In this document: in pieces, positions 27,819-31,409 of the stretch | Layout: each line of letters starts with the position of its first letter | Numbering within the stretch: position 1 is the stretch's first letter | Origin: an uncultured Frankiales bacterium | GTDB lineage: Bacteria > Actinomycetota > Actinomycetes > Mycobacteriales > SCTD01 | Assembly (NCBI GenBank): GCA_946479905.1 | Contig: CAMLIA010000017.1 | Coordinates: forward strand, 1-38,707 | DNA: 38,707 nucleotides | Direction: 5' to 3' | Notes under the pieces: model-generated | Database searches by the model: none | What the model was told of the DNA's origin: nothing | Seen by the model: only the letters and a program-made list of their open reading frames with translations | Translations under genes and position numbers: made by a program

Positions 27819-27996
27819 CGTCTTCTTTCACGGGCTGTGGATCTCCGCTGCGGGCCGGTCAGGGGCCGGGCGCTGTGGGAAATCCGTGGGATGATCTTGC
27901 TTCTGAAGCCGTGTTAGGCCATGTGATCCCATGTGATTCCGAGGCTTTTACCTGGTCATATGGCTATATGTCCAGGCTGGGGGATTCGCTTGACTT

Positions 27997-28042
27997 CCCT
28001 GATAAGGATGAGGCCGGTGGTTCAAGTCCACCTAGGCCCACC
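27997..28042 (+). other. attP core: 3' half of a tRNA-Ile(GAU) gene
   Basis: This segment reads as the 3' half of a tRNA: anticodon loop CTGATAA (27999-28005, anticodon GAT), a 5-base variable region, a T stem and loop (GGTGG, TTCAAGT, CCACC at 28016-28032), the acceptor 3' strand TAGGCCC (28033-28039), then A and CC. No 5' half is present, so it is not a working tRNA gene. It is the usual core of a site-specific integration target; the host attB should be a tRNA-Ile(GAU) gene. Confidence 0.85.
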
Positions 28043-28046
28043 CAGG

Positions 28047-29690
28047 TCAGGCCCCCTTCCGGGGCCTGGAGCGGAGGAGGACAACCCCCTCCTGTGGGAA
28101 TTCTGTGGGACGATCTTCGGGTCGTCCCACTTTTTTGTGCCGCCAACGGGCCTGCAGGATCTCCTCCAGGACCGCCACCGGCGAGTGCGGGGACAGCTCA
28201 AGGCGAGCGTCGAGCGCCGCCTCCCACTGCTGCGTCAGGGCATCACGCAACTCCTCCCTCATCTCCGGCGTCACGTGCGAGTAGACGCCCCCGATCCCGC
28301 CCAGGATGTGCCCCAGCCGCTCGTGGGACAGCACCTCCGGCGTCCGCAGCTGCACCATCAGCGACTTGTGGCTGTGCCGCAGCCCGTGAGGCGTCAGGCC
28401 CCGCGCGATCGGCGTCCAGGACATCTCCGCGCGCTCCTGCGCCGCCCGGCCCCGCACCGGCACGCCCGGCCACGGCTCGGCCTTCAGCGGCACCGGCCGC
28501 GCCGCCCCGGCCGAGCGCTTCGGGAACCACCCGTCCGCCGCGGGCCGGAAGATCCACGTCTCGAACCCGGACCGGCGCCAGTGCAGCGCAGGCGCCGCCG
28601 TCGGCGCGCTGCGGCCCGCGAAGCCGAGCGCCGCGATTGCTTCCTCGACGCGCGCCCGCGTCGCGTCAGCGACCCGCTCAGGGCGGTTCAGCACGTTCGA
28701 CACCGTGCCGACCGACACGCCCGCCCGCTCGGCGACGGCACCGATCTTCACCGCGCTGCGCTCCCGGCCACGGCCCCGGAAGACGTAGGCGCTGCCGTGG
28801 CACGCGCACTTGGTCGGCGCCGTCCGCGTGAGGTGCGCCGAGATCAGGTCCGACAGGAACCGCGGCAGATCAACGTCCCGGTAGGAGTCGTCCTTCGGCG
28901 GGCAGGCGACGAACGTGCCGTCGTCCAGCTCGACGAGCTCGGACTCCACGCGGATCGTCGACAGCCGGAAGTACTGGGTCTCCAAGCCGGTGAGCTCCGC
29001 CCACCGCAGCCCGGTGTAGTACTTCGTCGTCACCATCACGAACTCGTCGTCGCGGCCCGACAGGATCGCAGCCCGCTCGGCCAGGAGGAGGGCACCGAGC
29101 GGGTTCGTGATGACCTTCTCCGCCGTGCGGTGCGCGGACCGGCCGGCCCGGCGGCCGCGGCCGCGGCGCTTGGTGACGGGGTTGTACTCGATGAGGCCCT
29201 GCCGGTTGGCCGTGCCGAGGATCCGGTCGACCTGGTGGCCGTCGACGGCGTCGGCCATGATCGTGTGCAGCAGCGTGCGCCAGCTCTTGATGCTGGACTC
29301 CTTGTAGCCGGCCTCGCGCTCTTCCCGTTCCCAGGAGTCGACGTCGCTGGGGAGGATGTCGGCAAGCGCCGAATCCTCGAACGCGGGCAGCAGGTGGTAC
29401 TCGATGCGCCGCCGGATGTTCTGCATCGTGGTCGGCGCCAGGTCCTGAACCGCATACCAGCGGTTCACCCACTCCCCGAACGTGATCCGCCCGCGCGCCG
29501 GGTCGTGGTACCGACCGCCACGGACCTTGGCCTCCTCGTCGCCGGCGGCCTTCTCCGCATCACGCTTCCGCTTGAACCGGACCGCCCGGCCCTGATCGTC
29601 CTTCAGCGTCGGCCACTTCCCGCCGCCGTCGCTGAACCGAGCGAGGTAGTAGGTGTTCGCGCCGCTACCGCGCTTCTCGGCATAGCCCAT
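28047..29690 (-). CDS. int: Tyrosine integrase with inserted LacI-type HTH
   Basis: A 547-residue site-specific recombinase next to attP. It has an N-terminal arm-binding part (residues 1-65), a core-binding SAM-like domain (~66-165), and a catalytic domain with R229 (GLRWAE), K266 (CPPKDDSY), H435 and R438 (TPHGLRHSH), H461 (LGHILGG) and nucleophile Y470 (GGVYSHV). Between the CHGSAYVFRGRG segment and the RRSGFETWIFRPAADGW segment, which are normally close together, lies an extra region (about residues 310-367) with a textbook LacI-type HTH at 313-357 (AERAGVSVGTVSNVLNRPER). The ATG follows the 571-residue regulator by 3 bases, so it is probably co-transcribed. The C terminus reads through the right attP arm and ends 5 bases from the tRNA core. 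Confidence 0.95.
   Translation of the reverse strand: MGYAEKRGSGANTYYLARFSDGGGKWPTLKDDQGRAVRFKRKRDAEKAAGDEEAKVRGGRYHDPARGRITFGEWVNRWYAVQDLAPTTMQNIRRRIEYHLLPAFEDSALADILPSDVDSWEREEREAGYKESSIKSWRTLLHTIMADAVDGHQVDRILGTANRQGLIEYNPVTKRRGRGRRAGRSAHRTAEKVITNPLGALLLAERAAILSGRDDEFVMVTTKYYTGLRWAELTGLETQYFRLSTIRVESELVELDDGTFVACPPKDDSYRDVDLPRFLSDLISAHLTRTAPTKCACHGSAYVFRGRGRERSAVKIGAVAERAGVSVGTVSNVLNRPERVADATRARVEEAIAALGFAGRSAPTAAPALHWRRSGFETWIFRPAADGWFPKRSAGAARPVPLKAEPWPGVPVRGRAAQERAEMSWTPIARGLTPHGLRHSHKSLMVQLRTPEVLSHERLGHILGGIGGVYSHVTPEMREELRDALTQQWEAALDARLELSPHSPVAVLEEILQARWRHKKVGRPEDRPTEFPQEGVVLLRSRPRKGA
28048..28068 (+). terminator. Hairpin just after attP core
   Basis: An 8-bp stem (CAGGCCCC with GGGGCCTG, loop CTTCC) lies 6 bases after the tRNA-like core on the plus strand, overlapping the integrase stop codon. 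In an integrated prophage it would stand right after the rebuilt tRNA and could help end its transcript. Confidence 0.6.
28105..28136 (+). terminator. Strong intrinsic terminator, plus-strand, within integrase 3' end
   Basis: A perfect 9-bp stem (GTGGGACGA with TCGTCCCAC, 8-base loop) is followed by six Ts on the plus strand. No plus-strand phage gene needs it; after integration it would stop transcription from the host tRNA-Ile gene. It also overlaps the right arm box GTGGGA (28105-28110) and is coding for the integrase C terminus on the minus strand. Confidence 0.8.
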
Positions 29691-29693
29691 CGC

Positions 29694-31409
29694 TTAATCC
29701 CCTGGATTGTCATCGCGAATTGGTACGCCCGCACCGTGGAGGAAGCTGTAGATCTGGCTTCTGGTGATACCGAGCTCATGCTTTATTTCCGGAACGCTTT
29801 TCCCGCTCTCATAGAGAGAAACTACTGCCTGTCGAGTTTCCCGATGCCGCTTTAGCGTTTCGTATTTATCGGCGCATTCGGAACAACTGTTTATCTCTTC
29901 AAGGATGGCTCGGGATTCTTCGTCGTTGTACTTCCCATCGAGTAGGCCAATGATGTCTGGGCGGTGTCCGCATCGGGTGGACTTCCATGGGCGCAGGCTC
30001 GCTCCTGGCTCACCTGGTAGTGGCTGAGTGGTCTCCGTGGTCAGATCTAGCATGTCACGTATTTCGGGCTCGGTCCGCTCTAGGACTGCGGCGATGAACG
30101 CGGTGTCCATGCCCTCCTGGTGCAGTTTGGCGGCGACGCGGATTTGCTGCCTGCGGGCGTCTATAACTTCATCGCGGAGAGCCCGAACCGCACGGCTTAC
30201 TTCCCCTGGGTTCATGCCTGCCACCCGACGGTGGTTGCGCGTAATACTCGTCACCAGCTGGGAGACCTGAGCCTCCACCGCGTCGGCGATGACGTGGAGA
30301 TCGTCTTTCGTCAGGGCTTGAATTGCTGCGAGAGTGATCGGGATACTCATGCTCACTTTTGCTACCCCGACCTTCATTGCGCCGCCAAGACGCCACAGGC
30401 TGACATCGCCGTCACCGATCTCCGCGACGAGTTCATCATGATCCGAATCTGTTCGGAACGTGGTGGGCAGACCCGAGTCCACCTGTGACTCTCTAGTGGC
30501 GCGTTCTTGCTCGACTTCTCGCTTCGCTTGCGTAAGCGCACTGCGAGCGAGCATTTCACGCCGCAGTGCCTCGTTGTAACGCTCACGAGCAGTAGCGAGC
30601 AGCGGATCGTCAGATCTGAGCGCCTCTTCCTCCAACCTTTGGAGATGTGCGCTTGCATCGGCGGCCACGGCCGAGGACATTTCAGCGTCCAGTTCGAGCG
30701 CCGAGATTCGTGCCGCGCTTGCGGATTGAAAAGGATCAAGGCTGCGTTCGTTCCGTCTTTGGCGAGCCAGTTGCAGTCGTCTGGCTGCGACGGTCTTACG
30801 CGCCGATTCGATTCGTCGTTGCGCCTCGCTTCGTACCTCGCGACTTTCTTCCGGGGGCCAAGCAGATTGAGCAAGAATCGCTGCTTCGACACCGATGCCT
30901 GTCGCCTTCAGCTCTGCCTCGGCCTCTGGTGATAGGTAGTCGCGTAGGTAATCGATAATGCGGGCAAGCTCAGGTCCTGGGGCGTGTGTCACCAGTGGAG
31001 CCAATAGCGCGCGATAAAGGTTGAAGTTGATTTCTTTGCCGGATCTGAGGGTTGCGTTAACGGCCCTGAGCGCTGATCCGACCCTCTTCGGGCTGTCGCC
31101 CTCTGCCGCGGTAGCGAATAGTCGGGCGATTGCTTGCAATAGCGGGCGTGCCACATCCAGGGGGAGCACTTCGCCGCCGTCGGCCAAGGTGCCATGGCCA
31201 AGGACATCGCCCCAGGACGAGGCGGGGAGCACGATGGCGAGGGTGTCCTCGATCGCGTGCTTGCTTCGTTCGGTGAGAGGCTTGCCGGCCTCCGCATTGC
31301 GGACTGTTCCCCGCGAGATGTTGGCAATGGCCGCTAGGTCCTCTTGTGTCAAGCCGAGGGCCTCACGCCGTTCGCGCAGGATGTCCTTGTCCTCAAACTC
31401 GCGGGTCAT
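29694..31409 (-). CDS. Large XRE regulator with several HTH segments, candidate immunity repressor
   Basis: A 571-residue protein of unusual layout. Residues ~9-57 form an XRE helix-turn-helix (LRERREALGLTQEDLAAIAN, ISRGTVRNAEAG). About 180-310 is a long charged coiled coil. Two more HTH-like segments follow: ~424-455 (KLHQEGMDTAFIAAVLERTE) and ~526-560 (VSLYESGKSVPEIKHELGIT). A possible zinc site is C480, H482, C509 and C512. GC content is visibly lower than in its neighbours, suggesting recent transfer. It diverges from the small XRE and excisionase-like genes, and the integrase follows by 3 bases. Position suggests a repressor, but the size is far beyond usual phage repressors; an anti-phage or sensory role is possible. 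Confidence 0.65.
   Translation of the reverse strand: MTREFEDKDILRERREALGLTQEDLAAIANISRGTVRNAEAGKPLTERSKHAIEDTLAIVLPASSWGDVLGHGTLADGGEVLPLDVARPLLQAIARLFATAAEGDSPKRVGSALRAVNATLRSGKEINFNLYRALLAPLVTHAPGPELARIIDYLRDYLSPEAEAELKATGIGVEAAILAQSAWPPEESREVRSEAQRRIESARKTVAARRLQLARQRRNERSLDPFQSASAARISALELDAEMSSAVAADASAHLQRLEEEALRSDDPLLATARERYNEALRREMLARSALTQAKREVEQERATRESQVDSGLPTTFRTDSDHDELVAEIGDGDVSLWRLGGAMKVGVAKVSMSIPITLAAIQALTKDDLHVIADAVEAQVSQLVTSITRNHRRVAGMNPGEVSRAVRALRDEVIDARRQQIRVAAKLHQEGMDTAFIAAVLERTEPEIRDMLDLTTETTQPLPGEPGASLRPWKSTRCGHRPDIIGLLDGKYNDEESRAILEEINSCSECADKYETLKRHRETRQAVVSLYESGKSVPEIKHELGITRSQIYSFLHGAGVPIRDDNPGD

Follow-up and report, generated by a model that had tools for sequence, protein, structure and literature searches.

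A complete LacI-type helix-turn-helix (HTH) is nested in the catalytic domain of a tyrosine integrase encoded in the window, by which we mean the whole stretch of 38,707 nucleotides of Frankiales DNA analysed here, and this architecture is real, recurs among relatives and is maintained by selection. The integrase is encoded by an open frame of 547 amino acids on the minus strand (28047..29690), which was assigned from the frame itself, Pfam and homologues and in which no sign of a frame error was seen. The HTH comprises amino acids 315-357 (28620..28748, minus strand) with helices at 316-323, 327-335 and 342-355, is located between the catalytic lysine and the HxxR motif, and is supported by Pfam, PDB matches, the structure model and selection. 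The Pfam profile PF00356 (LacI) matches at amino acids 318-357 with 50.7 bits (cut-off 27; E 1.5e-13), in agreement with the original prediction of a LacI-type HTH in the catalytic domain. That the segment is a domain insertion and not a frameshift, as was also proposed, is borne out by the homologues and the tree as well as by structure models and selection.

The integrase starts with an arm-binding-like domain (amino acids 1-62; 29505..29690, minus strand), which presumably is AP2-like; it was recognised from its fold elements, two strands and one helix in the model, and from co-variation in relatives, and a Pfam match is absent there. A core-binding SAM-like domain with the segment following it (amino acids 66-190; 29121..29495, minus strand) was assigned from a structural match and from the profile PF14659, which matches at amino acids 70-120. 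The catalytic domain is split into a first part (amino acids 195-306; 28773..29108, minus strand), which contains R229, K266 and a CxCH motif (C295, C297, H298), and a second part (amino acids 370-500; 28191..28583, minus strand), which contains a helix at 373-386 as well as H435, R438, H461 and Y470; both assignments are based on alignment and model. All six catalytic residues are found where they had been predicted, and the set typical of tyrosine recombinases (R, K, H-x-x-R, H, Y) is complete. In a 120-row alignment of homologues, no change is seen at R229, K266, H461 or Y470, and at least 90% of the rows retain H435 and R438. The protein has both the catalytic-domain fold and the core-binding SAM-like domain; the model contains four strands (245-248, 251-254, 260-263, 271-274), and an extra hairpin around K266 is not clear. 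The catalytic profile PF00589 reaches 14.5 bits compared with a Pfam cut-off of 27.1. Residues C295, C297 and H298 (28797-28808) and H370 (28581-28583) are invariant in the 120 homologues and bracket the insertion site; they could form a zinc site that clamps the base of the loop.

The HTH resembles the headpieces of LacI, PurR, CytR and CcpA in fold and sequence. Its best PDB sequence match is the lac repressor headpiece, and NCBIfam models for LacI-type regulators match the integrase solely around the HTH (amino acids 311-395 at most). Modelled alone, the segment is predicted to fold as an HTH (pLDDT 77), as had been anticipated, and the first 40 of 50 Foldseek matches listed are LacI-family proteins with probabilities of 0.91 to 1.00, among them SghR, which we take to belong to this family. 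The lone HTH superimposes on the lac headpiece bound to DNA (1lcc) with a TMt of 0.70; no match of the Foldseek search reached an E-value of 0.001, the best being 8.6e-3. In LacI-family regulators, the headpiece is N-terminal, whereas it is internal in the integrase, and only the former possess a hinge helix and an effector domain. The sequence ARVEEAIAALGF, originally read as a hinge-helix-like end, forms helix three of the HTH in the model, and a low-confidence linker takes the place of the hinge: no hinge helix is modelled at amino acids 358-369, including the residues with a pLDDT below 50. No Pfam or NCBIfam match to a C-terminal effector-binding domain was found in the integrase, where the catalytic domain comes after the HTH. 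Since both hinge helix and effector domain are missing, the HTH protein is not a repressor.

Selection on the HTH was estimated from 40 pairs of relatives sharing no member, excluding L022, which has an early stop (63 amino acids), and L104, which has no HTH. The dN/dS ratio is 0.183 for the HTH, 0.162 for the AP2 part, 0.127 for the core-binding domain and 0.149 and 0.112 for the two catalytic parts, and 0.216 (amino acids 307-313) and 0.248 for the two linkers. By these codon comparisons, the HTH is under purifying selection near the level of the other integrase domains. Among 94 relatives, the residues equivalent to LacI S16, T19 and S21 are kept in 93 and N25 in 90; position 34 is Thr in 72 and Lys in 21, and position 31 is variable (Ala in 40, Thr in 30). 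In LacI, all six of these positions are DNA-backbone contacts; the exposed positions 36 and 40 vary freely, with an entropy above 2.6 bits. In 87 of the 94, LacI R22 is replaced by Asn, and LacI Q18 is replaced by Gly in 87/94 as well. The recognition-helix sequence TGTVSNV occurs in 116 of the 172 inserts matched by the search expression, from a set of 215 partly redundant proteins.

The insert lies between the equivalents of lambda Int T275 and R276, ahead of the helix S282-R287 according to the alignment, and is flanked by low-confidence linkers on both sides: amino acids 307-314 (28749..28772, minus strand; pLDDT below 50 at 309-312) and 358-369 (28584..28619, minus strand; pLDDT below 50 at 362-365). 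HTH-less relatives have a gap at this place, filled by only a few residues in P0092 and L104 and by a short unrelated stretch in P0071, L127, L138 and L141, and HTH-less outgroups are continuous across the site, as in MFLGPKGAHLSNSRF of L104. Residues S282, G283 and R287 of lambda Int presumably set its core specificity. The residues named in the literature passages instead are N99 and H329. In Tn1549 Int, helices I and J face the DNA, the catalytic domain sits in the outer major groove and N150 is the single base-reading residue (available passages of PMC5871717). Counting helices, the one that follows the insert corresponds to helix I.

At least 1791 proteins match the integrase at E ≤ 0.001 (at least 7994 candidates scored), and a search for relatives with the LacI HTH in the same place, as originally suggested, found PF00356 in 118 of the best 120 homologues, as read from the match table, far more than expected by chance. 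The GTDB r220 genome scan gave 275 relatives from 304 pattern matches, of which the best 80 were taken, and IMG/VR gave 15 relatives of 113. In 93 of these 95 loci, fetched with mostly HTH-containing queries, an open frame of at least 480 amino acids has a filled HTH region; the exceptions are L104 without the HTH and L022 with an early stop. Phylum-wide sampling gave 1 of 396 genomes at E 1e-60 (about three candidates scored per listed genome), the phages collection one weak match in 50,697 records, and a single-sequence scan of viral_contigs 0/3 relatives. In the order of G001, the genome closest to the window among those compared, 50 of 345 genomes match the HTH-less P0092, and the HTH is present in 6 of the 30 loci listed from this query (L128, L129, L131, L133, L136, L155). 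These matches indicate that HTH-less kin are common in this order, though the P0092 query favours them. A rooted tree of 66 rows, calculated by a quick method with an outgroup and leaving out the HTH residues, unites the HTH carriers in a clade (SH-aLRT 93) that also contains the HTH-less P0071 and P0092. It needs four HTH changes, one of which is an artefact of the split-frame fragment L133b. This topology, which comes with the quick method, a long branch for L103 and knowledge of P0071 and P0092 from protein records alone, fits one gain of the HTH in an actinobacterial lineage that comprises phages as well as integrated elements, followed by two losses; in the distant members L101 and L103, the HTH has diverged. 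A frame of 350 amino acids in G001, presumably a LacI-family regulator, is 68% identical to the integrase over amino acids 314-363, the best such frame in this genome, and a host LacI regulator may have been the donor.

The window is a phage: it encodes a tail tape measure protein (PHROGs), proteins with CHAP and pectate-lyase/beta-helix domains and a Prim-Pol/D5 primase. Its attP is unintegrated, and the tRNA gene is absent from the window. The products of recombination are visible in G001, which harbours a related prophage whose integrase is 96% identical and which lies between attL and attR, separated by about 38.2 kb. Other carriers include integrated elements: among ten proteins from L021, L027, L030, L050 and L074 that were checked for AICE genes, DUF3631, which corresponds to RepAM in the available text of PMC3218068, was found in L021 and L027, Prim-Pol in L027 and sub-cut-off FtsK in L021 and L030, and no such gene among the three proteins of L050 and L074. 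By their replication genes, at least L021 and L027 appear AICE-like. The gene preceding the integrase gene (29694-31409, minus strand) codes for a 571-amino-acid protein whose N-terminus has an Xre-type HTH and whose C-terminus gives another HTH-like match. The upstream genes of L013, whose integrase has the HTH, and of L138, whose integrase lacks it, are similar to each other.

The 3' part of tRNA-Ile(GAT), beginning at the anticodon stem, is reproduced exactly in the attP core (27996..28041, plus strand), which was delimited by both flanks of the G001 prophage. All further att features are given for the plus strand. Comparison with the arms of relatives identified left arm repeats (GTGGGAAATCCGTGGGATGATC; 27875..27896) and right arm repeats (GTGGGAATTCTGTGGGACGATC; 28094..28115), the latter within the integrase coding sequence. 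Near the place of the relatives' ACCAAC repeats, the window has 10-bp direct repeats (CCATGTGATc CCATGTGATt; 27919..27938), which are candidate sites for a recombination directionality factor (RDF) or the HTH. A left core-flanking motif (ACCTGGTCA; 27950..27958) overlaps the inverted repeat CCTGGTCATATGGCTATATGTCCAGG of the left attP arm (27951-27976), and a right core-flanking motif, CAGGTCAG (28043..28050), directly follows the tRNA end and is carried by the element. In the segment 28043-28115, the integrase stop codon (28047-28049) lies inside CAGGTCAG and the C-terminal codons overlap the right arm repeats.

A complete tRNA gene on the opposite strand within 250 bp of the integrase stop was found in 18 of the 95 loci (Pro(CGG) 12, Ile 2, His 2, Val(TAC) 1, Ala(CGC) 1), not counting the same-strand match of L098. 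A segment of 42 nt from the 3' half of tRNA-Pro(CGG) is present in two or more exact copies in 35 of 41 other HTH genomes, in one copy in four and in none in two; partial copies begin mostly at tRNA positions 28-33, in the anticodon loop. In tRNA-Pro elements, the layout of the left arm is fixed: A repeats (cTGGGAg..aTcTGGGAg) lie about 125-106 bp before the anticodon-loop block, beyond which come B repeats (ACCAAC-like, 10 bp apart), motif C (TGACCTGC or TGACCAGG) near -48 and a core-proximal ACCTCA. On the right side, CAGGTCAG or a similar sequence follows soon past the tRNA end in most of the listed tRNA genes, and a second A pair is present in the elements examined. In G001, CAGGTCAG is carried by the element, since the sequence behind attR lacks it. 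Streptomyces genomes contain a CAGGTCAG-like sequence behind other tRNA-like T-arms and some attR sites, and sequences of this kind may also be part of tRNA terminators. In L014, L027, L030, L048 and others, the restored tRNA gene is immediately followed by an inverted repeat (CAGGTCAGG...CCTGA) that the element brings along and that resembles a substitute transcription terminator; the hairpin of the window is not clearly stronger than shuffled sequences (z -1.2). Extra copies of the tRNA 3' half (G398:C3, G797:C29, G779:C34, G739:C69) suggest tandem elements at one tRNA gene, and some of these show a different arm layout (L117, L182, L192).

Co-variation of att motifs with parts of the protein was analysed in left arms, 42 of which were obtained from 44 attR stretches (17 + 27); the core expression gave no match in L121 and L122. 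Eight arms were excluded, namely L107, L108 and L111, whose integrase is on another contig or ambiguous, and L110, L117, L123, L182 and L192, which differ in arm layout and probably use an integrase of another type; L124-L126 and L161-L167 were examined but stand outside this set. Partial correlations were calculated for 33 of the remaining 34 elements, omitting L074, in which Xis was not found, and their permutations ignore relatedness. The 11 alignment columns that best track the arm type (GGGAGAA or GGGAGCC) all lie at amino acids 9-52 (34 elements), and the arm repeats have a partial correlation of 0.63 with the AP2 part compared with 0.21 with the HTH; the HTH was therefore rejected as the main reader of the arm repeats. 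In the arms L112-L120 and L168-L194, the switch between GGGAGAA and GGGAGCC goes together with the N-terminal domain far more than with the rest, as if this domain and the arm sites were swapped together as one module. Among the att-region blocks, the HTH ranks first of six protein parts for block B alone (0.33, 0 of 500 permutations; AP2 0.26, Xis 0.22). Elsewhere, the HTH partials are 0.24 for an adjoining inverted repeat and 0.11 for the core-proximal block, and for a far control 0.10, where the HTH again ranks first.

Reading of the core-flanking CAGGTCAG/CTGACCTG pair by the HTH was likewise rejected: the HTH partial correlation is 0.02, AGGTCAG is found behind the tRNA core of the HTH-less L127, L138 and L140, and CTGACCTG is present before the core in L162, L163 and L166, which were assigned to HTH-less integrases by genome, L166 being on another contig than its integrase. 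Motif C occurs in all six of these, A-like repeats in the HTH-less L132, L134 and L135, and the HTH-less L161 and L164 have less of the arm layout. The HTH does not account for the conserved attP motifs detected here. A role as tRNA selector was rejected as well, as the target tRNAs of carriers (tRNA-Ile, -Pro, -Val(TAC), -His and -Ala(CGC)) and HTH-less kin (Val(CAC), Val(TAC), Ala(CGC), Ala(TGC), His and Thr) overlap. That the HTH is a built-in Xis was rejected for the mapped tRNA-Pro elements, 33 of 34 of which have an Xis-like gene or motif upstream of the integrase gene; no such motif was found there in the window-like phage L012 or in L013, L017, L026, L093, L094, L097 and L106.

The favoured explanation is that an ancestral actinobacterial integrase gained the headpiece of a LacI-family regulator, probably once, in a surface loop before the catalytic helix that would face the outer core site. 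There, the headpiece would form an independent DNA-binding domain on a flexible tether, which acts next to the catalytic domain on the core and adds affinity, and perhaps modest specificity, to the DNA held in the recombination complex. Three DNA-binding units would thus be combined: the N-terminal domain on the arm repeats, the clamp of core-binding and catalytic domains on the core, and the HTH on a third stretch. We give even chances to this explanation as a whole, in which the HTH is an optional third module acting beside the core site. We infer the contact of the HTH with DNA in the intasome and its location, and its recognition helix would be exposed toward the DNA. That one chain has three specificities, for arm repeats, for the core and for a third site, att or core-flanking, that the LacI headpiece would read, is possible at somewhat less than even chances; if true, a repressor headpiece can be inserted into the catalytic domain of a recombinase and re-wire the intasome. 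An additional att contact had been part of the original prediction, and the position beside a putatively DNA-facing helix and the conserved contact residues are consistent with it; however, no DNA site for the HTH could be assigned from the att comparison, the clearest motif tracks the N-terminal domain, and two of the conserved attP motifs (A and C) are shared by some HTH-less kin. Moreover, the HTH is dispensable, as it is missing in P0071 and P0092. Their HTH-less position within the HTH clade and the divergence in L101 and L103 would also suit a neutral or decaying insertion without a role, but this is highly improbable given a dN/dS of 0.18, near that of the enzyme's own domains and below that of the linkers, and the presence of the HTH in 93 of 95 loci, although the queries were mostly HTH-containing.

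If the third module had a preferred site, the ACCAAC repeats with 10-bp spacing in the P arm (block B) would be a candidate, and the HTH might read them to help build the complex or set its direction. The first rank of the HTH for block B, the recurrence of the repeats in HTH elements at tRNA-Pro, tRNA-Val and partly tRNA-His, and their absence from the HTH-less attP arms L161-L166 point in this direction; however, this reading is unlikely, since the correlation is modest with kinship uncontrolled, the HTH has partials elsewhere including the far control, and the window has the HTH but different repeats. HTH-less elements have other Xis-like proteins where these were seen, and block B may instead represent Xis sites because Xis-like genes are located upstream of the integrase gene in 33/34 elements. 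LacI-family regulators bind palindromes as dimers. The second role originally proposed, that the integrase doubles as a regulator, would place the HTH on an operator of the int/xis or lysogeny promoter or on host operators and would account for a LacI headpiece sequence with conserved contact residues and for its similarity to the putative G001 regulator, but a single headpiece on a flexible loop without hinge helix and effector domain makes this improbable, and a word count upstream of the integrase gene, largely apparent coding sequence, gave no clear motif for an operator. A domain tethered within the catalytic region, as modelled, could also be mainly a protein-interaction or steric element that, for instance, slows recombination or meets Xis or a tetramer partner; the conservation of S16, T19, S21 and N25 next to several variable exposed positions speaks against this and leaves it quite improbable.

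A close system is provided by the complex tyrosine recombinases with arm-binding, core-binding and catalytic domains, of which the IntTn916 subgroup includes the pSAM2 cluster in the available parts of the survey by Smyshlyaev et al. 2021 (PMC8138268); in contrast to these, the integrase of the window has a LacI-type HTH nested in the catalytic domain. In the main text of this survey, as available, the terms 'LacI' and 'helix-turn-helix' are absent and 'HTH' appears twice, in a passage on excisionase profiles. Lambda Int is heterobivalent (available passages of PMC4880445), whereas the integrase of the window has a further unit of DNA-binding type. Like the beta-hairpin of Tn1549 and Tn916 and the integron insertion, as far as the available descriptions go, the nested HTH is a lineage-specific addition to the catalytic domain of the kind that matters for recombination. 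Unlike the beta-hairpin of Tn1549 and the integron insertion, which is small in size, it is a complete transplanted DNA-binding domain. No description of an integrase with a nested LacI-type HTH was found in the open-licence PMC literature searched, including the available text of PMC3218068, PMC9513070 and PMC8138268; that of PMC3218068 mentions a LacI regulator a single time, in the legend of a figure on Frankia AICEs.

A transcription-factor headpiece is thus nested in the catalytic domain of a recombinase, kept by selection and absent from close kin, and because of these kin, pairs with and without the HTH exist in nature for functional testing. Searches for prophages and AICEs based on PF00589 may miss some of these integrases because the interrupted catalytic domain falls under the Pfam cut-off. 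Furthermore, counts of regulators may be inflated by integrases named as LacI-family regulators: many of the listed homologues are called 'LacI family DNA-binding transcriptional regulator' by NCBI, and near full-length relatives on two plasmids are annotated as LacI-family regulators.
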